NCBI GenBank assembly: GCA_004213885.1
Contig: SGYL01000005.1
Location: forward strand, 1-64,000
Reading direction: 5' to 3'
DNA from: Alphaproteobacteria bacterium
GTDB lineage: Bacteria > Pseudomonadota > Alphaproteobacteria > Puniceispirillales > Marisalimonadaceae
Length of the DNA stretch: 64,000 nucleotides
Shown here: one piece after another, positions 31,483 to 53,831 of the stretch
How the letters are laid out: each line of letters starts with the position of its first letter
Position numbering within the stretch: the stretch's first letter is position 1
Notes under the pieces: model-generated
What the model was told of the DNA's origin: nothing
Database searches by the model: none
Seen by the model: the letters and a program-made list of their open reading frames with translations, nothing else
Made by a program: the position numbers and the translations under genes

Positions 31483-31489
31483 ATAGGTA

Positions 31490-31539
31490 CGTTCATCCTT
31501 TAGGACGGAAGTAAGTATTTATATAATACTGAAGGAACG
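31490..31539 (+). promoter_or_regulatory. Glutamine riboswitch aptamer, first of two in tandem
   Basis: A three-way junction. P1 is CGTTC (31490-31494) with GAACG (31535-31539). P2 is TCCT (31496-31499) with AGGA (31502-31505). P3 is AGTATT (31514-31519) with AATACT (31525-31530). The conserved joins CATC, GACGGAAGTA and GAAGGAACGCA match the glnA / Downstream-peptide RNA families, which bind L-glutamine in cyanobacteria and marine metagenomes. The assignment is from memory of the consensus. The fold and the second copy are seen directly. Confidence 0.85.
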
Positions 31540-31548
31540 CATTATCAT

Positions 31549-31595
31549 CGTTCATCTCGTAAGAGACGGAAGTAGGTAATGATGCCGAAGGAACG
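31549..31595 (+). promoter_or_regulatory. Glutamine riboswitch aptamer, second of two in tandem
   Basis: Same architecture as the first. P1 is CGTTC (31549-31553) with GAACG (31591-31595). P2 is TCTC/GAGA closed by GTAA (31555-31566). P3 is GGTA/TGCC (31575-31586). The P2 and P3 pairs differ from copy 1 but remain paired, which is internal covariation. Bases CACCT (31596-31600) directly after P1 can pair with AGGTG (31616-31620) of the ribosome binding site, a plausible expression platform acting on translation. The ON or OFF sense cannot be decided here. Confidence 0.86.
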
Positions 31596-31623
31596 CACCT
31601 AACTTTAACAGAGGGAGGTGACT

Positions 31624-35865: not shown

Positions 35866-36008
35866 TACAAATTTAATACATTTAACCAATTAGTATTTTT
35901 AATGTTAAAATTTCAATGATAAGCCATAGTTGCATGGGTAAATGTATATAGTTGATATGAGATATATTGGGATGTTAGCGCGTTTACTAGTTTAATGAAG
36001 ATATGCCA
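35866..36008 (+). repeat. Variable-region intergenic element, copy A
   Basis: Begins TACAAATTTAATACATTTAA, as in copy D, and contains the conserved core ATGTATATAGTTG (35942-35954) and ACTAGTTTAATGAAG. It lacks the two palindromes of the longer copies. It lies directly upstream of the SHOCT lipoprotein gene in the same orientation. Confidence 0.62.
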
Positions 36009-36050
36009 AAAAATTATTGTAACTAGAAAAAGTTTTGATAATGTTGCTAA

Positions 36051-36512
36051 ATGAAAAATTTTTTTTATATTATTACCCTTCTAGTTTTATTTGGCTGTGC
36101 TGGAAGCGCAACTCATGATGTTGTTAGTGCATACCAGTCTAAAGATAGGAGTTTAACTTGTTCAGAAATTGATAAAGAAATTGTTCGAGCACAAGTTATA
36201 ATTGATGGGGTTAATGAGGATAAATCCGGAATATCAGGTGCAGATATTATGGATGGTCTACTTTATTTTCCTTTTAACATGATAGCGAAAAGTCAAAATT
36301 ATAAAAACTCTTTAAGTGCCGCTGACAAAAGAATTGAAAGATTGGAAAATCTTAAGGATGACAAGGATTGTAAGGACACATCACAAGAAATGGCCAAAAC
36401 AAAATCTTCACTATCTCAAGAACTAAAAGAACTGACAAAAATGTATAAAAGTGGCGATTTATCAAAAATAGAATTCGAAAAAGCTAAAAATAAACTTTTG
36501 TTAGGAAACTAA
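36051..36512 (+). CDS. SHOCT-domain lipoprotein
   Basis: 153 residues. The signal peptide ends in the lipobox LFGC, so the mature protein is lipid-anchored at Cys16. A coiled middle part follows, and the C-terminus ELKELTKMYKSGDLSKIEFEKAK is a SHOCT (short C-terminal) oligomerisation motif. Function unknown. It overlaps the convergent M48 gene by four bases. Confidence 0.75.
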   Translation: MKNFFYIITLLVLFGCAGSATHDVVSAYQSKDRSLTCSEIDKEIVRAQVIIDGVNEDKSGISGADIMDGLLYFPFNMIAKSQNYKNSLSAADKRIERLENLKDDKDCKDTSQEMAKTKSSLSQELKELTKMYKSGDLSKIEFEKAKNKLLLGN

Positions 36513-37339
36513 AGATATTCAATCTTCACTTTGGGTATTAGCCTATTTAAATTTTTAATTCTGTTTTCTGTAATAGGATGTGTTCTTAAAACTTGAGGTA
36601 AATTTCTCAAAAAACGAGCTCCTATATCGTGTTTAGATTTATATTTTTCCAGTTTTTGAGAATAATTTTTTAAATTCATCCAAAATGAAACTGAACTTTC
36701 AGGTTTGTAACCTGCCAATGTCATAAACCTTAATCCCAACTCATCAGCTTCTGTCTCTTGAAACCTGCTAAAAGGAAGAAAATAACCAATTTCACTTAAA
36801 GCCGAACCAGAACCTATTATACCACCTGTTGCAGATGAAACGAGCTCTAAAGCAACTGCATGACTCATTCTTTCTTTTGAGTGCCAAGCAACCACGTGAC
36901 CCATTTCATGCCCCATTATTGTTGCTATTTCATCTTCATTCTTAGTAAAGTCTAGAATTCTTGAAAAAAAAACTATTTTTGCCGTAGGCATTGCAAAAGC
37001 ATTAATAGTTCTTTTATCTTTAACAATGTTAATTTCGTAGTCATATTGATATTTTTCATACTCATCTAATCTGTTTTCTATTTCAAAATACTTTTTAATT
37101 CCAATTTCAATTCTTTTTCCTATCTCTCTAACTTTTTTGACTAGTTTTTTATTTTTAACTAAATCATTATCAGCAAGAAATTCATAATAGTACTCGTCAC
37201 TCATATGTTTAACAATTCTTTCAGGAACAATGCTTAGTTGAGACCTTTTGTTTATAGGATTATAAGAACAACTAGACAAACTCATAGCACAACCACAACC
37301 CAAAATCCTTGTAAATTTTCTTCTACTAATTTTTTTCAT
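36509..37339 (-). CDS. M48-family metalloprotease
   Basis: 276 residues. HEMGH gives the zinc site, with the third ligand in ETEADELG. The N-terminus SRRKFTRILGCGCAMSLSSC combines a twin-arginine signal with a possible lipobox Cys, so it should be exported and perhaps lipid-anchored. It is related to LoiP/BepA-type proteases that look after outer-membrane proteins. Confidence 0.85.
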   Translation of the reverse strand: MKKISRRKFTRILGCGCAMSLSSCSYNPINKRSQLSIVPERIVKHMSDEYYYEFLADNDLVKNKKLVKKVREIGKRIEIGIKKYFEIENRLDEYEKYQYDYEINIVKDKRTINAFAMPTAKIVFFSRILDFTKNEDEIATIMGHEMGHVVAWHSKERMSHAVALELVSSATGGIIGSGSALSEIGYFLPFSRFQETEADELGLRFMTLAGYKPESSVSFWMNLKNYSQKLEKYKSKHDIGARFLRNLPQVLRTHPITENRIKNLNRLIPKVKIEYL

Positions 37340-37487
37340 ACTAATAATTCAACTATATTCTATCTTTATCAATCCATTGAGGATATTCCTTTTTAGCATT
37401 TAGTTTATTTTCAACTTCCATTAAATTAATATTGCTTTTATCTGAGGCCGATAGATACCTCTTCAATATCCATATCCTTATTGAACC

Positions 37488-38249
37488 TTAATGTCTGCTT
37501 TTGTTAAAGTCGCTACTCACTTCACCACTTAAACAACGAGGGACTCTTGGATAATTATCTGTGATAAAATATACATATTTGCCTTTATACATGCCTCCAT
37601 TACATTCATCGATTTTATCATTATTACCTTGATAAAAAAAATCTTCGTTATAAGTGCCATCATACTTTCCAAGAGGACCAGATTTTCTAAATCCATCTTT
37701 TAGGACCCAAGCAGACATTTTTCCTTTTATATAGTGAATCTCAAATCCGTCACCAGCATAACCTATATGACTTTTTTTTAAATTATTTACAAAGCTAGTT
37801 GGTAGACCATGATAATGATACATTCCACCTCTTCCTACATGTGCGTTATTAAAATCAAGCCCTAACCTACCCTTAAGACCAAAAATATCCACACTCCAAT
37901 TTTTCTTCCCATTACGACTATGTCCCCTTGGAGCTTTTGGATCCCAAAAACCAGCTGTAGCTGGACGAAATAAAACTCCGTTTAAAGCTATTCCAATTAT
38001 ACCTTTAATTTTTGTACTAGCAGTTGATTTTTTGGGGTATCTTGGAACGCAAACATGTATTTTTTGTTGAGATATAGAGTTAGGATTTCCTTTATTAGGA
38101 AAAACACCCGTTTTGTGATCAGGCATTCCATTACTATGAAAACATCTCTTATCTTTTGTTAATGATATTTCAAATTTATTTAATTCGGCAGCAACTAACT
38201 TTATAGGTAAAAATAATATTAATAAAAACACATATATTTTATTTTTCAT
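37488..38249 (-). CDS. YHYH-domain secreted protein
   Basis: 253 residues with a signal peptide (IYVFLLILFLPIKLVAA). The name motif appears as GMYHYHGLP, with a preceding block of conserved Gly/Asn residues (GIALNGVLF, DFNNAHVGRGG). YHYH proteins are periplasmic or extracellular and of unproven activity; metal binding by the His residues is likely. Confidence 0.8.
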   Translation of the reverse strand: MKNKIYVFLLILFLPIKLVAAELNKFEISLTKDKRCFHSNGMPDHKTGVFPNKGNPNSISQQKIHVCVPRYPKKSTASTKIKGIIGIALNGVLFRPATAGFWDPKAPRGHSRNGKKNWSVDIFGLKGRLGLDFNNAHVGRGGMYHYHGLPTSFVNNLKKSHIGYAGDGFEIHYIKGKMSAWVLKDGFRKSGPLGKYDGTYNEDFFYQGNNDKIDECNGGMYKGKYVYFITDNYPRVPRCLSGEVSSDFNKSRH

Positions 38250-38364
38250 TTGAAATCCTCTAAAAATTTACAGTTCCGTTGAGATAATAAATATGTAAAT
38301 ATTAATGTAACTTAAAAAAATTTTAAATTAAAAAAAATGATTCAGAAGAAAACTTTTTTCTGTT

Positions 38365-38652
38365 TTACTTAGCTTTGTAATCTAATTCGTCATTAACTAT
38401 TCCAGTCTCGATATTTGCTTTGCAAGAAAATCTATCTTCATAATCTTTGAAAAATTCCTTTAGCACAGGAATATACTTTTGAAGGTTTGCTTGATTATCA
38501 AATGTAAAAATACCAAGCCCCTTATCAGGTGTTATATGGTATGCATCGACGGCAATTAATCCTTTTAAATTTGAAAGGTCAAAGTTTGATGCTACATATT
38601 GATGACCTACATGCATTAATTTAGGATTTGAGTATCTAAGATTTAAAAACAC
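38365..38652 (-). CDS. Small protein, possibly 5'-truncated barrel domain
   Basis: 95 residues if started at GTG 38652; an ATG is available at codon 13. Neither has a ribosome binding site. The middle LGIFTFDNQANLQKYIPVLKEFF resembles the second strand-helix unit of dimeric alpha/beta-barrel domains. The 5' end may have been lost. No family is certain. Confidence 0.42.
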   Translation of the reverse strand: MFLNLRYSNPKLMHVGHQYVASNFDLSNLKGLIAVDAYHITPDKGLGIFTFDNQANLQKYIPVLKEFFKDYEDRFSCKANIETGIVNDELDYKAK

Positions 38653-38799
38653 ACAAAACTTAATAATCTCTAAAAATTAATTAATCACAATGGTAAATAG
38701 TTATCAATAATAAAAATCATTTATACATATATAAAATTACAATATACTAATTTTGAAAACAAAATTTCACATCACATTGAATACTTTTTATAAAAATAT

Positions 38800-39205
38800 G
38801 ATACATTTTAATAGTCTACCATAAGGTCTGCTCCCTTAACAAACAAAATAAATATGTTTGCATATCAATAATTTACGATGATAGTTTAACAGGAAGTGGT
38901 GCGCTCTAGAGGAGTTCTATTCCTTGTGTATGCACCACAAATAATATCATTCTAGCTATAGCTTAGGATATGTATTCATATCGTGATGTCACACGATTTG
39001 TTTCACAGTTTGTTTTATATATAAAATTAACCGTTACTAGCATAGGGTAAGTGGTACATCCTAGGTGTTAATAATACCCCCTTTATTAATGCACTTATAT
39101 GTAACACTTTAAGTGTTATCACTCCCCACGTAAGTACCATAGAGTTATGCATAGATTTATATAGTTGGTGTGTGTGATTGATTGGGGTATGAGTGTGTTT
39201 GGGTC
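38800..39205 (+). repeat. Variable-region intergenic element, copy B (expanded)
   Basis: The start (GATACATTTTAATAGTCTACC) matches copy D with a few changes. It then has ACATC-CTA-GGTGT (39056-39068), the palindrome TAACACTT-T-AAGTGTTA (39102-39118), the core ATTTATATAGTTGGTG (39155-39170) and GATTGGGGTATGAGTGTGTT. It is longer than copy D because of an inserted hairpin segment. No gene in the same orientation follows, so the gene it served may be lost. Confidence 0.68.
38896..38938. repeat. Inverted-repeat hairpin inside copy B
   Basis: GTGGTGC (38896-38902) pairs with GCACCAC (38932-38938), with a second short pairing inside (GAGGAG/TTCC region). It is absent from copies C, D and E, so it looks inserted. 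Confidence 0.45.
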
Positions 39206-39222
39206 AGTAATGATATTTACTT

Positions 39223-40005
39223 TTACTTAAAAACAGCGGATACATTTCCAAATAACGATGATGTAACCTGTATTAATTTATTATCATTTATAGCAATTGG
39301 AAGTCCATAGGCTCCAGTCAAAATTAAATTACCTTTTTTTAAAATATTGCCTATTTTATCCTGTTCTTTAACTAACCATTCAACCTCTGACAACATATCA
39401 TAGGGCCACTTTTTATCTGACCATGTATCAATTATCTCTTTATCAAAAATAAGCTTTAAATCAGTTAATTTAGAATTGACATTTCCTTTTGTAGGCTTTC
39501 CTATTACTACACCTGCATGAATAGCATTATTAGTGAGTAGTTCAGCACCAAAAGGTGGATTACCATTAAAAACTAGATTATGAATTTCAATTACAGGATG
39601 AATGGTTTCTATTGAATCTAAGATATAATCTAAATTTACTGATTCAGGTTTTAAGTCACGGTTTAATATAATTCCAAACTCTGCTTCTATTGCGGGATTT
39701 GAATAGTTAATTCTTTCTAAAGTTATACCATCAGAGTATAATTCATTTTTCCAAAGTCTTCCCCAAGCTGGTTTAGTTAAACCCATTTTAAACTGCGTAT
39801 CTTTAGATATACATCCAATTTTATATCCTATAACTTCTTCACCTCTTTGCTTTCTTAAATTTGTTACAGCTTGCTGAATTCGAAAGGCATCTTCAATACT
39901 TATAGATATTTTGTCTTTAAATATTCCTGATGGGATTTTTGCGTCATAATCATCTAAAATTTTATGTGCATAAACATCTAATTGAAATTGACTTAATTCT
40001 ACCAT
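39223..40005 (-). CDS. 2-keto-4-pentenoate hydratase / fumarylacetoacetate hydrolase family
   Basis: 260 residues. The FAH-fold metal ligands are in AIEAEFGIILNRD and the Glu further on (VIEIHN). GYKIGC near residue 60 and the ending LTGAYGLPI fit hydratases of the MhpD type. They hydrate 2-hydroxypenta-2,4-dienoates in aromatic meta-cleavage. No other meta-cleavage genes are near, so the physiological substrate is open. Confidence 0.8.
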   Translation of the reverse strand: MVELSQFQLDVYAHKILDDYDAKIPSGIFKDKISISIEDAFRIQQAVTNLRKQRGEEVIGYKIGCISKDTQFKMGLTKPAWGRLWKNELYSDGITLERINYSNPAIEAEFGIILNRDLKPESVNLDYILDSIETIHPVIEIHNLVFNGNPPFGAELLTNNAIHAGVVIGKPTKGNVNSKLTDLKLIFDKEIIDTWSDKKWPYDMLSEVEWLVKEQDKIGNILKKGNLILTGAYGLPIAINDNKLIQVTSSLFGNVSAVFK

Positions 40006-40067
40006 TATTAACTTACAAATAATTATACAAAGTTAGCCTACATGATTTAAGTAACAATTAAAGGACT

Positions 40068-40964
40068 TTATTGTGATTTAATTTGAATATCCTTTTTGGC
40101 TACAATTAAAACACAAGTCAACCCGATTATAAATGCACCTAAATAAAACAAGGGTTGCATTTTTTCTTCAAAGTAAATTACTCCAACTAATATTCCTAAA
40201 GGAACGGATATATACCTTAAAGGAGCTAAAAGACTCACTGGAAGTAATTTATGACTATATGACAAGCATATTTGCTGTAAACTTGATAAAACACCTATTA
40301 AAATCAAAATAAAATAAGAATTTTCTATTATTTTGAAATCAACATCGATAATTACACAAATTAAATAAAATACTACTGCTCCAATAATATTATACCACAA
40401 AGCTGTTGTAGTAGGATGGTCTGTATTTCCCAATTTCCGAAGAGAAATAAGCATTATCGATGCACACAAGGGGCAAAGAATTCCATAAATAATTCCAAAA
40501 TTATTAAATTTTAATAACTCATAGCTTGGATTAATTATTAAAAAAACCCCAATAAATCCTATCAAAGCCATTATTATTTTAAAAAACCCAACTCTCTCAT
40601 TAATAAGAATTGGTGCTAACAATGTCACAAATAACGGAATTGTATTTAATAATGTAGTCATTAAACTTAAGTCAATATATTTAAGTGCAGCAAATAAAAA
40701 ACCAAATGAAAATAATCCAGCTGCAGTTCTGACAAATAACCCTGATTTAGATATAATTTTAAAAGTGTCTTTTTTTCTTTGATAGAAGGAAGTTAAAAAT
40801 AATAAAGGTATACAAAATAAATATCTAAAAAATAAAATCAAAAAAACAGATAGTTCAGCTGCTATAAGTTTTACCAAGGATGCGATAAGAATCGTTGAAG
40901 TAACCTCTACTAAAGAAAGTGAGATACCGAATGATTTTTTTGATTTTAAATTTACTAATTCCAT
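40068..40964 (-). CDS. EamA-family (DMT superfamily) transporter
   Basis: 298 residues with ten hydrophobic segments and two EamA repeats (FRYLFCIPLLFLTSF in the first; GIIYGILCPLCASIMLISLRK starting the second). Small-metabolite carrier, substrate unknown. It follows no obvious operon partner; the hydratase is 62 bases downstream on the same strand. Confidence 0.83.
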   Translation of the reverse strand: MELVNLKSKKSFGISLSLVEVTSTILIASLVKLIAAELSVFLILFFRYLFCIPLLFLTSFYQRKKDTFKIISKSGLFVRTAAGLFSFGFLFAALKYIDLSLMTTLLNTIPLFVTLLAPILINERVGFFKIIMALIGFIGVFLIINPSYELLKFNNFGIIYGILCPLCASIMLISLRKLGNTDHPTTTALWYNIIGAVVFYLICVIIDVDFKIIENSYFILILIGVLSSLQQICLSYSHKLLPVSLLAPLRYISVPLGILVGVIYFEEKMQPLFYLGAFIIGLTCVLIVAKKDIQIKSQ

Positions 40965-41139
40965 AAAAATAATAATTCACATACAAAGTCTGATTGTTAG
41001 ATTATACGTGTTATTTAAAATGTTCTTTTATTATTTAATACACACACTACTAAATAAACTATAACTCTGAATTATGATATCTTACTATAATATCAATAAG
41101 CATGAAATGTGCAAAAGTTTGTGTATCGCTAAAGTTAAA

Positions 41140-41300
41140 TGTTCTTAATGACGTTAAATGTAGACATCATAGGTGTTATTTATAACCTACTTAAAACATT
41201 ATTAAACTGCATTATGTCTAAAATATTAACACCTTTACATGAGCCATGCACATATGGATAGATGTATATAGTTGGTGAGAGTTATAAATTGGAATGTAAT
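41140..41300 (+). repeat. Variable-region intergenic element, copy C
   Basis: ACATC-ATA-GGTGT (41164-41176), CATGAGCCATG and the core ATGTATATAGTTGGTG (41262-41277) are shared with copy D. The second palindrome is degraded. It is upstream of, and in the same orientation as, the DUF3303 gene. Confidence 0.62.
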
Positions 41301-41427
41301 TTATATGCAAATAATATGTCAATAAATGCAAAACAGAATTCTAATAACTACACTTTAAAAATAGTGTAGATAATTTAAGTTATAAATATCTTTTACTAAT
41401 TTCCTCCTTGATTAAAAAGATAAGAAA

Positions 41428-41455
41428 CGGGCTCTTAATGAGCCCGAATTTATTT
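41428..41455 (+). terminator. Orphan intrinsic terminator
   Basis: CGGGCTC (41428-41434) pairs with GAGCCCG (41440-41446) around TTAAT, the same loop as the aapJ terminator, followed by AATTTATTTGTTT. No ORF precedes it on the plus strand within 450 bases, so it may end a small RNA that includes repeat copy C. Confidence 0.75.
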
Positions 41456-41562
41456 GTTTGAATGATTAAATTTTAATCAAATGTACCTATTTAAATTTTA
41501 AACTGTGTAGAATTAATTATAAGTCATGTAAAATATAATATTAAATAAAGAAAGGATAAAAA

Positions 41563-41868
41563 ATGATTTTTATGTGTACTTATCAAGTAGATAGAGACAA
41601 GCAGGCAGATACTCAAGCATTTTTTGCGAATATGACTGATGAGCAAATTAAAGGAGAATATCCTGACGGAGTCAAACAAATTGGTCGTTGGCATGATACA
41701 CCGAACGGCAGGGGTTGGGTAGTGGTAGAAACCGATAATGTAGAAGCCTTGACAACTTGGATGATGGGCTGGTCAGGACAAGCGACATTTCCAATTATAA
41801 CACCTGTTATGGACGATACTAATGGTCGAAAAATGATGAAAGCTGTGATTGCAAGCCAGCAGAGCTGA
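41563..41868 (+). CDS. DUF3303-family small protein
   Basis: 101 residues. MCTYQVDRDKQADTQAFFANM, KQIGRWHDTPNGRGWVVVET and a final PVMDD match DUF3303, a dimeric ferredoxin-like barrel family. A hand count of its first 180 bases gives 72 G+C (40%), clearly above neighbouring genes, a sign of recent arrival. AAAGGA precedes the start. It lies downstream of repeat copy C. Confidence 0.8.
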   Translation: MIFMCTYQVDRDKQADTQAFFANMTDEQIKGEYPDGVKQIGRWHDTPNGRGWVVVETDNVEALTTWMMGWSGQATFPIITPVMDDTNGRKMMKAVIASQQS

Positions 41869-42152
41869 AAAAAATAAAATTTAGGACTTACCCATTGTCA
41901 ACTATTAAGCTCATCAATTATATTAACTTAGTAAAATATAAGTTTTAATTTGCTTATTTTGAAATACATTGTCATTGAATGTTTTATCAGCCTGTATGTA
42001 GCTGAATAAGTCAAAGATTGTAAATACAGCTAAATATGTATAGTTAAGCTGTAAAGAAGATGGTGTAGGATTATAATGAATATTACCCATGAAAATTTAA
42101 GTCTAAAAATTACACGGGATATTTTTATTAAATTAATAGCTAAAATAAGTAT

Positions 42153-42923
42153 TCAAAATAAATTTTTAAATCTGTTTTCTTTATCTAAATTAATATCATC
42201 CAATCCAATGGAATCAAATGGATTTTCAACATTATGTTGAATATTACTTAACATAACCAACACAGAAGAGTATAAGATAGCCACAATATATCCTAAATAT
42301 GAAATAACTTCATTAAGACTTGCGAAATATGGCGCAAAAAGAATAGGAAAAATATTTAAAAAAATCTGGCTATAGGCTTCTAATCCTCTAGGTGTTCTAT
42401 AGTCAGAAATGGAGCTAATTTTTTCAAAAGAAACAATTGTATTATTCAACCAATTATTGATACGTGAAATTTCACCGTCTGATACATCTCTATTTCTTAA
42501 TTTTTCATTTTCATTAGAAATTTTTAAAAAGCTATTATAGATTTTTTTTTTATGTTTATTATTTAAACTTTCTGTCACTAAATCTTTTTTAATATATGAA
42601 AAAAGTTCTTTTATAATTTTGTTAATATCTGAGTTTTCTTTAAAAGGTTTTTTCTTTGACCAATTTAAATGTGCAAAATAAATTGAAGTAAGATTAGCAT
42701 TAATTATTCCATAGTGTTCAAGTGCTTTGTCTCTTCTTTGAAATGCAGAATTAATACTGAAAACAATAGGAAAAACAACTGCTATACCAATAAGAGAAGT
42801 TGGCATATTTCCAACGAGATTAATGCTACCGCACACATAAGTAGTAAAAACAGATAAAATTGTAATAATAAAAACTTTGATGTTAATTATATATAAAAAA
42901 TTTTTCAAAGTATAAAAGTTCAA
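42153..42923 (-). CDS. Bestrophin-like channel protein, paralogue 1
   Basis: 256 residues. Two N-terminal membrane segments, MPTSLIGIAVVFPIVFSIN and AFQRRDKALEHYG, a helical middle domain, then YRTPRGLEAYSQIFLNIFPI and the ending NVENPFDSIGLDDINL. The NPFD...DDI tail and RTP motif fit bestrophins (RFP-TM chloride channel family), which form pentameric anion channels. It is a close paralogue of 44199-44972 and is transcribed with the channel gene between them. The anion specificity is inferred. Confidence 0.75.
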   Translation of the reverse strand: MNFYTLKNFLYIINIKVFIITILSVFTTYVCGSINLVGNMPTSLIGIAVVFPIVFSINSAFQRRDKALEHYGIINANLTSIYFAHLNWSKKKPFKENSDINKIIKELFSYIKKDLVTESLNNKHKKKIYNSFLKISNENEKLRNRDVSDGEISRINNWLNNTIVSFEKISSISDYRTPRGLEAYSQIFLNIFPILFAPYFASLNEVISYLGYIVAILYSSVLVMLSNIQHNVENPFDSIGLDDINLDKENRFKNLF

Positions 42924-43073
42924 AACAATTAACTCCTTTAAAATACAATAGGAAATCTATATTAAGAAAATATTAAATTCCTGAAAAAAATTTAAAACAA
43001 AACAAATTAAATAAATATCTAATATATGTCATTGAAAACTATATCAATCTATAAATTTTTATCTCCAACATGC

Positions 43074-44168
43074 TCAATGTGGAACTACATCTTTGAAAAT
43101 ATATAAATACAAAACTGCAAATGCTCCAAAAGCGAATAAGGGGCTTGCAGTCCTAGCTATTTTTTCTAGACCTCTATTTGTATTTCCTCCTTCTTCGGCG
43201 ATTTTATAATGACTAATTATGCCAATCATAAGATTAAATGTTACAACAAAAGTAGCCCAAATAAACAACCCGTCTGTGAAATTTAGATAATGCGTACTTG
43301 GCAGTGACCCTCCTAGAGAAAATTTTAGTGCAGGTACCGTTAGAAATAATGTAAGTTGTCCACCAATTCTCCAATTAAAAATATCATAATTTCCTGATGG
43401 GTAAAAGTGGTTTAATAGTAATGACAAAAATACTATTGCAAAAATTGGAAAAAGTATTTTTTGTACTGAGTCAATGAAACCGTGTTCTACATTAACATGA
43501 GATATTAAATATGAAAATTTCTCTTTACCTCCGTGATTTAAACTTGTCCTTCCTTGCTCCTCAAGAAGCGTTTTTGTAACTTTCCAATTTCCCTTTACAA
43601 TTTTGTGATGAGCATCATGGTGTCCAATTTCAATGCTACTTGGATAAAACACCATTTTTGATTTATTACCTGAAAACGAAGCGATATCTAAAAATAGATC
43701 TAGATTTCCAAAAGGATATCTTGGCATTTCAGCATCAATACTTAAATCTGCTTCAAACCTCTCAAATAATTCAAACTTTCCTTTGTAAACATCTAATGTT
43801 TTATAATGGGTTGTTCTTGGATTTTCAGCATTAGATACAAAAAATTCAGGATACCAAATTTTTTCTAAATATTTATTAAGTTTTGGTCCATGGATAATTT
43901 CATCCCCGAAATTTGCAAGAAAATCAGAAGTTTTTTTATCTTCCCATATCATTAAAATTTCAACAGATACTTTATAGTGACCCTCACTTATATCTATACC
44001 ATAAATTTCATCATACAAAATTTTGGTCTCAACAAGATGTTCAGTTTTTATTTCAGATTTTTCTAATTTAGTTTGAGATTTAGCATGAGAAGCATCTTTA
44101 GAAAATGATGTGTTTATTCCGGAGAATAGTAAGGTTATAAGTATTATGAAAAAAAACTTAAAATTCAT
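43074..44168 (-). CDS. Pentameric ligand-gated ion channel homologue (Cys-loop superfamily, prokaryotic type)
   Basis: 364 residues with a signal peptide. The extracellular beta-domain has WYPEFFVSNAENP and the segment MPRYPFGNLDLFLDIASF, which corresponds to the FPFD region of the superfamily but without Cys-loop cysteines, as in GLIC and ELIC. Four membrane helices follow. The M2-like helix lies in GGQLTLFLTVPALKFSLGG, and LPSTHYLNFTDGLFIWAT is the M2-M3 loop into M3. A His-rich stretch (GHHDAHH) near residue 190 could bind metal. It is flanked by two bestrophin-like genes, 30 and 150 bases away, on the same strand. Confidence 0.82.
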   Translation of the reverse strand: MNFKFFFIILITLLFSGINTSFSKDASHAKSQTKLEKSEIKTEHLVETKILYDEIYGIDISEGHYKVSVEILMIWEDKKTSDFLANFGDEIIHGPKLNKYLEKIWYPEFFVSNAENPRTTHYKTLDVYKGKFELFERFEADLSIDAEMPRYPFGNLDLFLDIASFSGNKSKMVFYPSSIEIGHHDAHHKIVKGNWKVTKTLLEEQGRTSLNHGGKEKFSYLISHVNVEHGFIDSVQKILFPIFAIVFLSLLLNHFYPSGNYDIFNWRIGGQLTLFLTVPALKFSLGGSLPSTHYLNFTDGLFIWATFVVTFNLMIGIISHYKIAEEGGNTNRGLEKIARTASPLFAFGAFAVLYLYIFKDVVPH

Positions 44169-44198
44169 TTTTTAAACTCCAATATTTCTAAAATTGTT

Positions 44199-44972
44199 TT
44201 AAATAACACTTTTGAACCTGTTATCACTATCTAAGTCTATGTCATCTAATCCTTTAAAATCAAATGGATTCTCAACATTATCTTGAATATTATTTAAAAT
44301 AACTAAAACTGTAGAAAACAAAAACGCCACTAAATAACCTAAAAAACTTATTTCTTGATTTAAATTTGCAAAATATGGAGCGAAAATAATTGGGAAAATA
44401 TTTAAAAATATTTTACTATAGGCTCTCATACCTCGCGGTGTTCTATATTCTGAAATAGCACTTAAATTTTCATATGAAGAAATTACATCCTTGAGATAAA
44501 AATTTATATATCCGATTTCTGTTGGGGTTATGCCTACATACCTAAGTTCTTCATTCTTATTTGCAAAAAAAGAGAAACATTCATATATCTCTTTTTTTAT
44601 TTTTTTATCTTTGCTTTCATTTACTAAGTCTTTTTTGATTAGTGCAAGTAATTTCAAAATATAACTCTTTAATTCTTCTGATATTTTTTTTTTATTTAAT
44701 TTATTATATTTACACCAATGAATATGATTGAAAAAAATTGACACAAGGTTAGCATTTATTACACCGTATAATTCAAGAGCTCTATCTCTTCTTTGAAAGG
44801 CAGTATTGATACTAAAAACAATGGGAAATACTACTGCAATTCCAATAAGAGATGTCGGCATATCACCAGTTAGACCAAAGTGACCACATAAAAATGTCGT
44901 TAACAAAGAGATTATTGCAATCAAAAAAACCTTTGTATTACAAACATATAAAAAATCATCAAAAGTTCTCAT
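44199..44972 (-). CDS. Bestrophin-like channel protein, paralogue 2
   Basis: 257 residues, same architecture as 42153-42923: MPTSLIGIAVVFPIVFSINT, FQRRDRALELYGVINAN, YRTPRGMRAYSKIFLNIFPI and NVENPFDFKGLDDIDL. It is the first gene of the three-gene channel unit. The two copies clearly come from a duplication, and the differences between them are conservative, so both are probably functional. Confidence 0.75.
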   Translation of the reverse strand: MRTFDDFLYVCNTKVFLIAIISLLTTFLCGHFGLTGDMPTSLIGIAVVFPIVFSINTAFQRRDRALELYGVINANLVSIFFNHIHWCKYNKLNKKKISEELKSYILKLLALIKKDLVNESKDKKIKKEIYECFSFFANKNEELRYVGITPTEIGYINFYLKDVISSYENLSAISEYRTPRGMRAYSKIFLNIFPIIFAPYFANLNQEISFLGYLVAFLFSTVLVILNNIQDNVENPFDFKGLDDIDLDSDNRFKSVI

Positions 44973-45468
44973 AGAATTTAATTAAAATAATAAACTAATA
45001 TGAATCCTATTTGAGATTTATAAAATTTCCTATTAAAATTTAAAAAAAGTAAATATTTATACAAATTTAATACATTTAAATGGTATACCATATTGTCTAC
45101 TTTAAAAATAACTATTCTTAGTATAGGTAACTGTAGACACCCTAGGTGTCATTATTATCCTTTTTATTAAGACATTTATACTGCCTAACATTTTAAATGT
45201 TACCACCCCACGCATGAGCCATGGGGGTATGGGTAGATGTATATAGTTGGTGTGTGTGACAGATTGGGGTGTGAGTGTGTTAACTAGTTTTATGAAGCAT
45301 ACATAAGTGTGTTAGGGGTGTTATTAGATTCTTAGTTTTTTGGTGGTAGTTAGGTAAACTCAGGAAGTGTGAAAAACAAAGTGATAAAATTTTGTACCTT
45401 TTTACTTAACATAGATAGCATTGATTGATACTTTCTTATTATAAATCTTTATAGACTAGGAGTTTCTA
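44973..45468. other. Non-coding gap with repeat copy D
   Basis: About 496 bases. It holds the best-preserved copy of the variable-region element; no ORF is convincing. The end carries AGGAG before the TTG start of the next gene. Confidence 0.6.
45058..45300 (+). repeat. Variable-region intergenic element, copy D (reference copy)
   Basis: In order: TACAAATTTAATACATTTAA, the perfect inverted repeat GACACC-CTA-GGTGTC (45136-45150), TAACATTT-T-AAATGTTA (45186-45202), CATGAGCCATGGGGG, the core ATGTATATAGTTGGTG (45237-45252) and GATTGGGGTGTGAGTG. It lies upstream of the 45469 gene in the same orientation. Confidence 0.75.
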
Positions 45469-45804
45469 TTGGATATCAAAGCAATTTTAATGACCTATAA
45501 TACCTTTACTTTTAAGACAGAAGCGCAAATGCTTCTTTTTAAAAGAATTTGGGAAGATAATGGTACAGCACTATTTGATAAAATTAAAAAAAAAGGATGT
45601 ACAAGATTTTGTCTTAATCAAATCTGGAATGTAAAGGGAACATTTAAGATGTCTATTCTTTTTGAGTATGAAAGTCCAACTTCATTTAAACAATGTCAAA
45701 ATGAATTAGAAAATTTTACCAAAAATCTAATGAAAGAACTTCAAGCCGCAGACCCTGTTATAGAGGCAAGTAGAAACATTGTCCTTCAGGACTTGAGAGT
45801 TTAG
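45469..45804 (+). CDS. Small protein, sole intact member of a three-copy local family
   Basis: 111 residues starting at TTG, chosen because AGGAG stands about seven bases upstream; an ATG at codon 8 has no such site. Core blocks are NQIWNVKGTFKMSILFEYES and the C-terminal ASRNIVLQDLRV. The strand-helix pattern suggests a ferredoxin-like barrel. Broken relatives are at 31068-31395 and 48495-48914. It is downstream of repeat copy D. Confidence 0.68.
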   Translation: MDIKAILMTYNTFTFKTEAQMLLFKRIWEDNGTALFDKIKKKGCTRFCLNQIWNVKGTFKMSILFEYESPTSFKQCQNELENFTKNLMKELQAADPVIEASRNIVLQDLRV

Positions 45805-45932
45805 CTCCTTAATAATACAGTATCCTAAACGCAATAAAACCTTTTTTCATACACCATTAATTCTATTTACACTTACACATCTATAAGACTCATTAAAATA
45901 GTTAATAATTTTTTTTAATAGATACTGAAATC

Positions 45933-46622
45933 TTAAAATTTTTCTAGCCAAGGTCTTATTTCTAATTCCCAAGACCATACACTTCTTTTTTGATTATAAA
46001 ATTCTAGATATCTTTTTGCAATCTCATCCGGACATAATTTATCATCATCTTTTTCATATGGTCTATTCTCAGACACTATGCTTCCATCTATTATAAAGTG
46101 ACCTATGTGAATATTTTGTGGATGTAATTCACGTGCTAATGATTGTGCTAAACCTCTTAAAGCAAACTTACCCATTGCGAATACTGATGAATTCGGAAAG
46201 CCCTTTGTGCTGGCAGATGCTCCTGTAAAAAAAATGCTTCCAGAACCTTTTTTCTTCATTCTCTTAACTGATTGTTGTGCAACTAAAAAAGCACCAAATA
46301 ATGTTATATTTAATGCATTTCTTGTGTTTTCTATATCTAATTCTTCAATAGGTCCTCTTACTCTTGAAGATGGATTATAAATCACTAAGTCTGGTTCCTC
46401 CTTTATATCATCTAATTTGCTAAATAAATTTTCAACATCAATTGAAGATGACACATCACACTTAAAAACATTTGCCTTTAATTCTTTCTTAACATTTTCA
46501 AGTTTATTAATATTCCTTGCCACTAAAGAAATAGACATTCCATTTTTATGAAATAATCTTGCAAGAGATAAACTTAATCCACTACCTACACCTATTATCA
46601 AAGCCTTTTTGTAAAGTGACAT
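45933..46622 (-). CDS. SDR-family protein lacking the catalytic tyrosine
   Basis: 229 residues. The Rossmann motif is GVGSGLSLSL (11-20). The position of the catalytic Tyr is Phe: F148 in VFAMGKFAL, with the Lys K152 kept. The NNAG motif is replaced by NPSS. The fold is intact but the chemistry may differ, or it may bind rather than oxidise. The substrate is unknown. Confidence 0.75.
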   Translation of the reverse strand: MSLYKKALIIGVGSGLSLSLARLFHKNGMSISLVARNINKLENVKKELKANVFKCDVSSSIDVENLFSKLDDIKEEPDLVIYNPSSRVRGPIEELDIENTRNALNITLFGAFLVAQQSVKRMKKKGSGSIFFTGASASTKGFPNSSVFAMGKFALRGLAQSLARELHPQNIHIGHFIIDGSIVSENRPYEKDDDKLCPDEIAKRYLEFYNQKRSVWSWELEIRPWLEKF

Positions 46623-46657
46623 ATTATATTCCTATTGAGTATAAAAATTATTAAATA

Positions 46658-46945
46658 TTAAGTCTTTGTAAATGAATCTGAACTCATTATCGTTGCAATT
46701 GCAGTTTCTAATTTGGCTCCAGAAGCGGTTCTAATTTTAGTCAATTCTTCATCACCAGCAAAATTTTGTAAAGATTCTGGGCTTTCAAAATCCATAATAA
46801 CTGTCAATTTATTATCATTATCTTTTTCAGTACCGGCAAATACTAACTTGCCTCCATGTTCATTTAATTTATATTCATTATCAATAAACATTTCTTTCCA
46901 TGGAGTAAAACCTCTCTCCAAATCAATTTCCATTTTAACTATCAT
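46658..46945 (-). CDS. DUF3764-like small barrel protein
   Basis: 95 residues. VKMEIDLERGFTPWKEMFIDNE, the KLVFAGTEKDNDNKLTVIMDF strand pair and SLQNFAGDEELTKIRTASG fit the DUF3764/ABM-like barrel pattern. GGGG precedes the ATG. It is upstream of the SDR gene by 35 bases on the same strand. Confidence 0.65.
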   Translation of the reverse strand: MIVKMEIDLERGFTPWKEMFIDNEYKLNEHGGKLVFAGTEKDNDNKLTVIMDFESPESLQNFAGDEELTKIRTASGAKLETAIATIMSSDSFTKT

Positions 46946-47139
46946 TAATTACCCCTTTGTTGTAAAATCTCTTTATTTATAAAGTTTAAACAATTAACCA
47001 AATTTAAACAAAACACTAGGTTTTTTTGTCCTAATCATTTAAAATTTGCTTTGCATAAATTTGGAGTTGATTTTGTAATGTCACCAAATTTTCATTTATA
47101 TTCAATTAAAATACCTCTTCTCTGCTAAAATTATAATTA

Positions 47140-47300
47140 CTAATACCAAAAATTTTTACTTATGCAGGATTGTTCATCAGGCAAATTTATTAATTCATTA
47201 TTTTTTTTACTTAAAATATATGGCTTTAAATTTTTAGTCACTTCATCAAGATGCCAAGCAAAATCTAAATTTTTATTAATACTATAGAAATTGAACAATA
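47140..47300 (-). pseudogene. Fragment of a paralogue of the 12.6-kb secreted protein
   Basis: The minus strand reads NKNLDFAWHLDEVTKNLKPY and ILSKKNNELINLPDEQSCIS, ending FWY at TAG 47140-47142. It aligns with FAWNLDKVTSTLSPIILS near the end of the gene at 12568-12981. Only the C-terminal third remains and no start is present. The stop of the next gene on this strand adjoins its left part. Confidence 0.58.
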
Positions 47301-47693
47301 TTATTCTGAACTATGATTGAAACCACAATGATGCCTGTTGAAACTAGCTCCAAAAGGAGTTAGTGTGTCAATTAAGTCTTGTTTAGAATTGCCATAAACT
47401 AACCATTTTTTAATATCAACATGTTGCAAAACTTCTTCGGCTATAGGGCTTGACATATGGTTATTTAAACGTTGCATAGCACCATCACTGTCAATAAATG
47501 ACTCTACTAATGTTGCTTCTTTATTATCATCAGACAAATACCATTCATAACTTATAGTTTTTACTTCCTTAAAATCAAACACGTATTTTGCGGCACGGTC
47601 ATTTGCCCATTTTCTAAATTCGTTAGCATCAGACTTGACACTACATTGAATAATAAATATTATTTTTTGTGATTTTGTATTGAGTTCGCCCAT
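47301..47693 (-). CDS. Small ABM-type barrel protein
   Basis: 130 residues from ATG 47693 with AGGA upstream. A longer frame reaching 47867 runs into non-coding repeat sequence and is rejected. KIIFIIQCSVKSDANEFRKW, TISYEWYLSDDNKEATLVES and the helix AMQRLNNHMSSP resemble antibiotic-biosynthesis monooxygenase-like dimeric barrels. It is downstream of the inverted repeat copy E. Confidence 0.7.
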   Translation of the reverse strand: MGELNTKSQKIIFIIQCSVKSDANEFRKWANDRAAKYVFDFKEVKTISYEWYLSDDNKEATLVESFIDSDGAMQRLNNHMSSPIAEEVLQHVDIKKWLVYGNSKQDLIDTLTPFGASFNRHHCGFNHSSE

Positions 47694-48208
47694 TATTTTA
47701 TCCTGTTTTAATTGTAGATTAATTATAAAAGTACATACATAAGTAATCAACGTATTTAGCTTGAATTTATTTAATTTATAAAAAATATAATACAACTTAA
47801 TAAAAAACTCATATGTCGCACACCCTAAATATATATATCTAGCTATACCCATTTCTGACATACACAACCACTATAACCACATTTTATGTACCAGTGACTG
47901 TACTAACACTGACACTACTGTATAATTCTCTATGACTCATTAAAATGGTTAACACGCTCACACCCTAATCTGTCACACACACCAACTATATACATCTACC
48001 CATACCCCCATGGCTCATGCGGGGATAGTGTTAACACTTAAAGTGTTAGGAAGAATAATTTTTAGAAGGTTACTATCACTGATGTAGCTTACAGTTATTT
48101 ACATTAAGGACAGTCATTTTTGTTAATTAATGATAAACACTTTACATAGAGTTTTAATTTTTAATATATTTAAAAGGTAATTTTAATTTATTTACAGAAG
48201 GATTTATT
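47694..48208. other. Non-coding gap with repeat copy E
   Basis: About 515 bases between two divergent small-barrel genes. It contains the element in minus orientation plus a more degenerate second half-copy, and no ORF I would accept. Confidence 0.6.
47820..48110 (-). repeat. Variable-region intergenic element, copy E (inverted)
   Basis: On the minus strand: TAACACTT-T-AAGTGTTA (48048-48032), CATGAGCCATGGGGG, the core ATGTATATAGTTG (47995-47983), GTGTGTGAC and GATTAGGGTGTGAG. A degraded second core (GGGTATAGCTAGATATATA) follows at about 47830-47860. It is upstream of the 47301 gene in the same orientation. Confidence 0.72.
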
Positions 48209-52694: not shown

Positions 52695-53831
52695 TTACAG
52701 ATTTACAACTTTAATTTTTGATAGTGCCTTTTTAGCCTTTTTAAGGTTACTCGCTAAAATTACTCCCATTCTTCTATAAGGTTTAGTTTCAGGTTTACCA
52801 AAAATTCTGATATCAATAGTTTTATCTCTAAATGCATTTTCAATTCCTGTGATCAAAAACTTTCCTTTTGCATTTTTATCTGCAAGAATAACTTGACTAA
52901 CACCCTTATTAACAAGTTCAATTTTCGGTATAGTAAAATCTAATATTGCTCTAGCATGTAGATCAAATTCACTGAAATTTTGAGTAAACATTGTAACCAT
53001 ACCAGTATCATGGGGTCTTGGACTTAATTCACTAAAATATACCTCATCTTTTTTTATAAAAAACTCTATACCAAACAAACCCTTACCATTTAAATCTTTT
53101 ACAATTTTTCTAGCTATAATTTTCATTTTATTAACAATGTTTTGTTCACATTTTGCAGGTTGCCAACTATACTGGTAATCTCCTCGCTCTTGAACATGAC
53201 CTATGGGCGGACAAAAATGAATTTTACCTTCTGAGTCCAAAATCGTTAATAATGTAACTTCATAGTCAAAATTGATAAATTCTTCAATTATAACTTTTTT
53301 TTTCTTTCCTCTCATACCATTCAAAGCAAACGTCCAAGCTTTTTTAACTTCAGAAACTGTAGAAGCGTAACTTTGACCCTTCCCAGAAGAACTCATGACT
53401 GGTTTAATTGCAACTTTGTCATTAATATTATGAAACATTTCAATTATTTCATACAAAGTTTCTGCATATCCAAATCTTGCAGTTTTAATTCCGAGCTCTT
53501 TTGCTCTATTTCTTATTTTGTCCCTATTCATTGTCATACTTACTGCTTTTGAGGAAGGAATAACTTTTAGACCACTTCTTTCAAATCTTATAAGACTTTC
53601 AGTATCGATTGCCTCAATTTCTGGAACTATTAAATCTGGTTTATGTTTATCAATAACTTGTTTTAAATTATTAGAATTCAACATATCAAAAACTTCACAT
53701 TCTTGAGAAACTTGCATAGCAGGTGCATTTTTATATTTATCACATGCAATTATGTAACAACCAAATCTTTGAAGACTAATAGTGAGTTCTTTGCCAAGCT
53801 CACCACTTCCAAGTAATAAAATTCTTTTCAT
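52695..53831 (-). CDS. purT: Formate-dependent phosphoribosylglycinamide formyltransferase 2
   Basis: 378 residues, ATP-grasp. The start ILLLGSGELGKELTISLQR, the ATP loop KPVMSSSGKGQSY and the metal-binding end (GIEFFIKKDEVYFSELSPRPHDTG) are characteristic. It makes formyl-GAR from GAR, formate and ATP in purine synthesis and is folate-independent. It is transcribed alone and is convergent with the DUF1445 gene. Confidence 0.93.
   Translation of the reverse strand: MKRILLLGSGELGKELTISLQRFGCYIIACDKYKNAPAMQVSQECEVFDMLNSNNLKQVIDKHKPDLIVPEIEAIDTESLIRFERSGLKVIPSSKAVSMTMNRDKIRNRAKELGIKTARFGYAETLYEIIEMFHNINDKVAIKPVMSSSGKGQSYASTVSEVKKAWTFALNGMRGKKKKVIIEEFINFDYEVTLLTILDSEGKIHFCPPIGHVQERGDYQYSWQPAKCEQNIVNKMKIIARKIVKDLNGKGLFGIEFFIKKDEVYFSELSPRPHDTGMVTMFTQNFSEFDLHARAILDFTIPKIELVNKGVSQVILADKNAKGKFLITGIENAFRDKTIDIRIFGKPETKPYRRMGVILASNLKKAKKALSKIKVVNL

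Follow-up and report, generated by a model that had tools for sequence, protein, structure and literature searches.

Clustered repeats in a SAR116 genome are probably the right ends of small tRNA-anchored cassettes that share a sequence block with HMO-2011-type phages

What are the five related intergenic repeats that lie side by side in the genome of an alphaproteobacterium of the SAR116 cluster? The window analyzed here, a stretch of 64,000 nucleotides (nt) (assembly GCA_004213885.1, contig SGYL01000005.1, positions 1 to 64,000), is part of a 1.406-Mb genome (G000, contig G000:C12). A sequence-only reading of this DNA had recognized copies A to E of a structured element and proposed that it might be a mobile regulatory module, a small RNA, or a recombination site that moves small genes. 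We conclude that the repeats probably mark the right ends of small integrative cassettes that are anchored at tRNA genes in SAR116 bacteria, which resemble phage satellites and are arranged in integron-like arrays; one of the five (copy B) is an intact end and the other four are decayed. A search of the genome with copy D (query range 45060-45330) recovered five copies at the places given for them, with E-values from 2e-139 to 7e-13 (all <1e-12), and the next-best match had an E-value of 0.05. Because nothing else fell below 0.05 in 1.406 Mb, the family is restricted to 35.9-48.1 kb, and a dispersed miniature inverted-repeat transposable element is ruled out, all five copies lying within 13 kb. 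The 13-mer ATGTATATAGTTG that the copies were said to share is exact in A, C, D, and E and has one mismatch in B. It is not by itself beyond chance (seven sites at two or fewer mismatches against 4.7 expected); what is beyond chance is the similarity between copies over 100-190 nt.

The sequence-only reading had made its case depend on the existence of copies outside the locus, and such copies exist. Copy D had matches at E<=0.001 in 48 of 198 related genomes, including seven of the 90 that are nearly complete, some of these matches covering the arm piece only (see below). In a named collection, 17 of 19 loci with the repeat pattern were from the SAR116 cluster (Puniceispirillales) and two were assigned to an alphaproteobacterium only, most of them being from single-cell genomes or metagenome-assembled genomes. 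A class-wide DNA search of 385 genomes found the attachment unit in its own genome only. Iterated profile searches of the window and 40 fetched stretches produced a 190-nt model, which we call the E element, or E, as distinct from copy E, with 103 full or partial copies, of which 60 were near-full. (Labels beginning with L and G denote the loci and genomes compared, and int denotes the cassette integrase.)

Alignment of the DNA upstream of the 60 near-full copies revealed that the repeat is the inner part of a recombination arm of about 330 nt. The layout is constant: the outer arm (LE) comes first and is followed by the core, the spacer, two arm repeats, and the 190-nt E element. The core corresponds to a tRNA 3' end in reverse complement, and a recognizable tRNA-tail core is present 122-145 nt upstream of E in 28 of the 60 near-full copies. 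The arm repeats form a direct pair, about 12 nt apart, and fall into three classes, the TGTGCATCA, TGGTCTACC, and TGTTTCACA types. There is good support for assigning the repeat to a recombination site, and the suggestion of a recombination site that moves small genes was right in substance: the repeat lies within a tyrosine-recombinase attachment region that borders small cassettes.

In the window this anatomy is complete only in copy B. The places assigned to the copies held up, but the real units extend further in the 5' direction, that of copy B reaching to about 38843 and including a tRNA 3'-end core. This attachment unit (38843-39200, + strand) has the order LE-core-arms-E and covers model positions 7-367 of 382. 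Its core (38897-38913, - strand) agrees at 17 of 17 positions with the 3' end of the tRNA-Arg(TCG) gene of the same genome (G000:C8, L128) and is the sole match at two or fewer mismatches in the 64 kb. The core is followed by paired integrase arm repeats of class 3 (TTTGTTTCACAGTTTGTTTTATAT; 38997-39020, +), as found upstream of the genome's own integrase, and by the E element (39024-39200, +; copy-D match 39022-39199). Copy C has an E element (41133-41298, +; copy-D match 41130-41292) and degenerate class 1 arm repeats (41109-41128, +), its core having been lost. Copy D, a full-length E element (45105-45294, +), is preceded by a class 2 arm repeat (TGGTATACCATATTGTCTAC; 45081-45100, +), the same piece that is found at integrase starts in relatives. 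Copy E is also a full-length E element (47937-48120, -; copy-D match 47931-48058), and copy A (35873-36000, +), identified by both the copy-D search and the profile, is a degenerate E element reduced to its 3' two thirds. Neither A nor E has an arm remnant, and A lacks a core as well. Thus, with only B complete, remnants at C and D, and none at A and E, the copies in the window are mostly relics. The profile also detected a second partial E element, a 3' part, downstream of copy E (47808-47851, -), and the final 112 nt of contig C8 (29585-29696) are the start of an attachment unit that is truncated where the contig stops.

The enzyme associated with these sites is a tyrosine recombinase with the Pfam domains Phage_integrase and DUF6538. 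Its R, HxxR, and Y columns, which we take to be the catalytic residues, are invariant in 12 aligned integrases; the NCBIfam XerC-, XerD-, and XerA-like models scored it far below their cut-offs, and no IntI-specific model matched. Integrase matches were found in 87 of the 198 relatives, and the gene of our own genome is located at C8:27783-28919. A tRNA gene (Arg, Leu, Gly, or Thr) was called directly upstream of int in 22 of 30 fetched loci, and a bare tRNA tail remains there in several others. Seventeen of the 30 int loci had an E element in the stretch, and in 16 of these it was downstream of int, in the same orientation, at a distance of 0.2-1.1 kb. The exception was L141, in which E is upstream and inverted; L126 and L145 have an extra E copy in the opposite orientation. 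As is the case for tRNA-targeting tyrosine-recombinase elements, int lies beside a tRNA 3' end, of which a second copy is present at the opposite end. The three classes of arm repeats seen at the E copies are also those of the repeats that precede int, and the window genome's own integrase and copy B are both of class 3. Arm class followed the integrase tree and not the tRNA, with two changes (the minimum) against a shuffled mean of 8.4; in this test the labels were assigned by eye, L133, L140, L143, and L154 (unlabeled by regular expressions) and L152 (called class 1) were set to class 3, and L146 was left out. Finally, we note that inverted LE arms and cores stand on either side of the integrase gene at L133, L083, L104, and L098. 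This arrangement recalls the inverted Flp recombination target (FRT) sites of the yeast 2-micron plasmid, and by analogy such inverted cores could support inversion-driven amplification.

The 3' end of the E element, about 80 nt, is a sequence shared with phages. When the complete attachment unit was compared with 50,697 phage records by unbiased blastn, a single weak match was obtained, 25 of 25 letters in Roseobacter phage CRP-1 (E=0.009). The match falls in non-coding DNA with repeated CACTT..AARTG sites, located at the end of the record, and this DNA proved to match the 3' part of E as well, although that part had not been the object of the search. The CRP-1 block matches HMO-2011 (two records), CRP-2, CRP-13, CRP-345, and CRP-603, all HMO-2011-type phages; in HMO-2011, for which the record gives a SAR116 host (IMCC1322), the block matching the 3' end of E is at 53555-53638. 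A pattern derived from the 3' block of E was present in 46 viral contigs, of which 39 had the same 30-nt span even though gaps of 5-15 were allowed. We then used 43 of these contigs, reduced to 20 non-redundant ones, for a phage-only profile without SAR116 sequence (L176 and L201, which were coding and chance-like, and one over-short contig were dropped). In 619 kb of SAR116 stretches the profile identified 28 sites at E<0.01 (best 7e-13), every one of which coincided, strand included, with an E or attachment copy, and reversed DNA gave none below E=1. In the window it recognized the block of copy E (47944-48023, -; E=0.0017), and an exact match of the phage pattern lies at 47943-47972. Since the viral contigs had been chosen by E-derived patterns (resting partly on the CRP-1 match), E-values of a profile with those columns are inflated, and the profile was therefore rebuilt without the pattern columns. 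It then gave eight matches at E<0.01 (best 2e-6), with none in the control.

The phage pattern occurred 27 times in 19 of the 198 relatives, always with the 30-nt span and with no match in the control, and all of the carriers belong to this order; a looser form of the pattern was likewise confined to this order among these relatives. The int islands of the more distant SAR116 genomes G063 and G069 also carry the block. In 385 genomes across the class, the CACAGATYAGG...TGTTAACCA pattern was found once, and this single match outside the order is at G254:C25:2514-2542 (L256). Searches of the phage collection with the E copies of G069, L149, and L094 returned chance-like matches only, and a plasmid search returned no match, so that neither points to a match that is easily obtained. 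When a single viral block, that of L192, served as query, no isolate was identified.

What might the block do in the phages? In HMO-2011 it lies between the divergent genes gp71 and gp72, and in the viral contigs it was intergenic, by simple open-reading-frame calls, in 39 of 46 cases, 16 of them between divergent genes. Three of the four distinct CACTT..AARTG palindromes of HMO-2011 are in the intergenic stretch of the block, and the window has one such palindrome each in copy B (39105) and copy E (48035). The minimum of the cumulative GC skew of HMO-2011 is 0.6 kb from the block, although transcription diverges at this place, too. The region 53176-53664 of HMO-2011, in which the conserved block and the palindromes stand together between divergent genes, is a candidate for the origin or packaging region of HMO-2011-type phages, and we slightly favor an origin-like role over a packaging site. 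One paper on these phages was searched for origin or packaging terms, and its main text contained none.

The cassettes themselves are small, about 1-4 kb, and are arranged in arrays. Neighboring E elements had the same orientation in 23 of 31 pairs, faced inward in seven, and faced outward in one, and cores in the same orientation were spaced 872-4090 nt apart (median 2283, n=16). The int-less loci L084, L086, L088, and L094 have cores that repeat the tRNA tail in direct orientation, as expected for an inserted cassette. In the window, copies D and E form an inward pair, D being the left border and the inverted E the right border of a 2.8-kb cassette. The cargo of the window includes genes for peptidase M48, YHYH, EamA, DUF3303, bestrophin-like, ligand-gated-channel-like, DUF6974, SDR, and DUF1330 proteins and a hydratase/decarboxylase-like gene; DUF6974 is matched by the commonest cargo family of the set (41 members). 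At 42153-44972 (-), in the cassette cluster, two bestrophin-like genes with about 72% DNA identity flank a channel-like gene, the product of which shows weak similarity to pentameric ligand-gated ion channels (NF033918, Neur_chan_LBD). At L080 (4017-8141), L081 (4903-8338), and L066 (4008-4233), single contigs contain the unit in identical or head-to-head copies, which are either inversion products or assembly effects. Elsewhere in the window, at 31488-31599 (+), are two tandem glutamine riboswitch aptamers (RF01739), both above the gathering score.

Could the repeat instead act as RNA or as a regulator of its neighbor? The sequence-only reading described the 17-base palindromes and their C-G/T-A double change correctly, and the pair in question is CG in 14, UA in 11, and broken in three of 28 copies, which speaks for a structured cis-regulatory RNA or a small RNA with compensatory changes. 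Over the same 28 copies, however, RNAalifold gave a consensus of -0.93 kcal/mol without a compensatory pair, palindrome 1 was paired in 62% and broken in 38% of cells, and Rfam had no match at the repeat. Our own column-shuffle test on 62 aligned copies gave -8.6, whereas 50 shuffles averaged -1.5 and reached -5.9 at the lowest, and there is thus some local pairing beyond that of shuffles, which comes from the short palindromes and amounts to no single fold. Four of the five copies do point at a small gene in the window, but this is not a rule, because the next gene beyond the repeat (70 copies, 39 loci) was oriented the same way in 26 cases and in the opposite direction in 40, and for the other four copies there was no gene within 800 nt. 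This mixed orientation rules out a promoter or leader for the downstream gene and tells against the mobile regulatory module as proposed. Together with the folding and Rfam results, it makes a structured RNA very improbable. An attC integron site was also rejected, as there is no conserved fold and no GTTRRRY pair at the ends (the ends having been judged by reading only).

In the mechanism that we propose, the tyrosine recombinase encoded behind the tRNA would recombine tRNA-tail cores, and cassettes of 1-4 kb with a few small genes would be gained, lost, and inverted in arrays, those without int presumably being served in trans, to judge from their anatomy. The 3' block of E, with the CACTT..AARTG palindromes, is the signal that the phages have between divergent gene blocks, and an infecting helper phage would replicate the excised cassettes (if the signal is origin-like) or package them, allowing them to travel as phage satellites. 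Indeed, that the cassettes carry the phage signal suggests that they ride on HMO-2011-type phages. In the fullest version of this proposal, each cassette would be a minimal phage satellite with no replication or packaging gene of its own, whose attachment arm has the origin or packaging signal of the phage; infection would excise the cassettes, amplify them into concatemers, and ship small metabolic cassettes from cell to cell. We offer this version tentatively, giving it somewhat less than an even chance.

Alternatively, E could be a mere long accessory arm of the attachment site, with a likeness to phages that stems from shared host factors and involves no dependence on a phage. E is at a fixed distance from core and arms, both kinds of carrier live in alphaproteobacteria, and the block ends in GTTAACCA, a CtrA-like sequence that, like the DnaA-like boxes, we presume to be a candidate host-factor site. 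Yet a profile of about 80 nt with a fixed 30-nt spacing exceeds two factor sites, a pattern seen once in the class is no common host motif, and even its looser form stays within this order among the relatives; we consider this explanation unlikely. A phage-sensing switch or decoy is another possibility: block and palindromes would bind a phage regulator or initiator, and infection would trigger excision or the cargo, or the protein would be titrated, with no packaging. The concentration of the palindromes in one intergenic stretch of HMO-2011 and their presence in copies B and E fit this idea, but the cargo genes face either way and the ten proteins tried included no convincing defense family, making it distinctly improbable. 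Decayed ends of HMO-2011-type prophages, finally, would account for the shared block, and CRP-3 integrates in tRNA-Met, according to the part of PMC6918029 available to us. But the HMO-2011 block is several kb from the phage integrase, the DNA between the repeats is small cargo with no phage structural gene among the families looked at, and the cassette integrase is of a different, DUF6538 type. This explanation is already largely refuted and retains next to no probability.

Several points weigh against reading the repeats as cassette ends that travel with phages. No movement, excision, replication, or packaging was observed; what the DNA shows is the attachment anatomy, the integrase association, and the phage match, and from these we infer recombination, mobility in trans, and replication or packaging by the phage. 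No integrase adjoins the array in the window, that of the same genome being located at the end of another contig. Where int is present, the core beside E has the inverse orientation of the tRNA core, which complicates any simple excision that would include the integrase. The phage-only profile had no match to copies A to C among the matches listed and only a weak one to the block of copy D (45205-45284, +; E=0.29). Three E or arm patterns were absent from IMG/VR, as was any close relative of the integrase (best 32%); packaged cassettes were thus not seen there. Finally, the HMO-2011 block is about 9 kb from the terminase gene and the block is not at the ends of assembled viral contigs, which speaks against a cos end; a cos site or terminal repeat of the phages is not favored.

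How do the cassettes compare with known systems? The tycheposons of Prochlorococcus, reportedly described by Hackl et al. in 2023, are likewise islands of streamlined marine bacteria that are bordered by tRNAs, encode a tyrosine recombinase, and carry exchangeable cargo, and the combination of tRNA, tyrosine recombinase, and variable cargo in a marine genome is found here. In contrast to tycheposons, the SAR116 system has repeated units of about 330 nt in arrays, cassettes of 1-4 kb, inverted cores around the integrase, and an arm that carries a helper-phage signal. The parts of PMC10872708 and PMC10803314 that we saw cite tycheposons, the former with a size of 4-200 kbp. A phage-inducible chromosomal minimalist island (PICMI; PMC10803314, seen in part) and virion-encapsidated integrative mobile elements (VEIMEs), which are concatemer-packaged satellites, share with our cassettes an integrative nature, very small size, lack of capsid genes, and proposed dependence on a helper. 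PICMI carries int, alpA, and a primase gene and integrates at fis, according to the same excerpt, whereas the SAR116 cassettes, known here from sequence alone, are often int-less and seem to bear a phage-like DNA signal instead. The phage-satellite feature found here is a cis signal common to a cassette and a phage of the same host. Integrons (IntI/attC) likewise combine a recombinase with an array of small cassettes and repeated sites mostly in one orientation, but here the cores are tRNA tails and the sites are arm-type, about 330 nt long, and without a conserved hairpin. The recombinase has the domains Phage_integrase and DUF6538. In the additive flexible islands of Methylopumilus, exchangeable groups of genes are delimited by repeats of the final 20 bp of a tRNA; arm repeats, integrase pairing, and a phage signal are not described in the portion of that report available to us (PMC10872708). 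The literature searched, seen in part and including PMC10803314, PMC10872708, PMC9038755, PMC6918029, and PMC12324425 (the Charybdis preprint), contained no description of this SAR116 cassette system. Searches for literature on SAR116 and phage satellites returned no paper, and with HMO-2011 included they returned one virome paper.

SAR116 bacteria are among the abundant members of the surface-ocean community. The same is true of HMO-2011-type phages, according to the part of PMC9038755 that we saw. Sequence alone, in the form of a common signal of about 80 nt, would link one particular phage group to one particular gene-exchange system and would identify the helper phage. The system would also offer a simple explanation of how small genes are exchanged among streamlined genomes. 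In addition, the E block would serve as a cheap marker for finding such satellites, and it suggests where HMO-2011-type phages may have their origin or packaging site.

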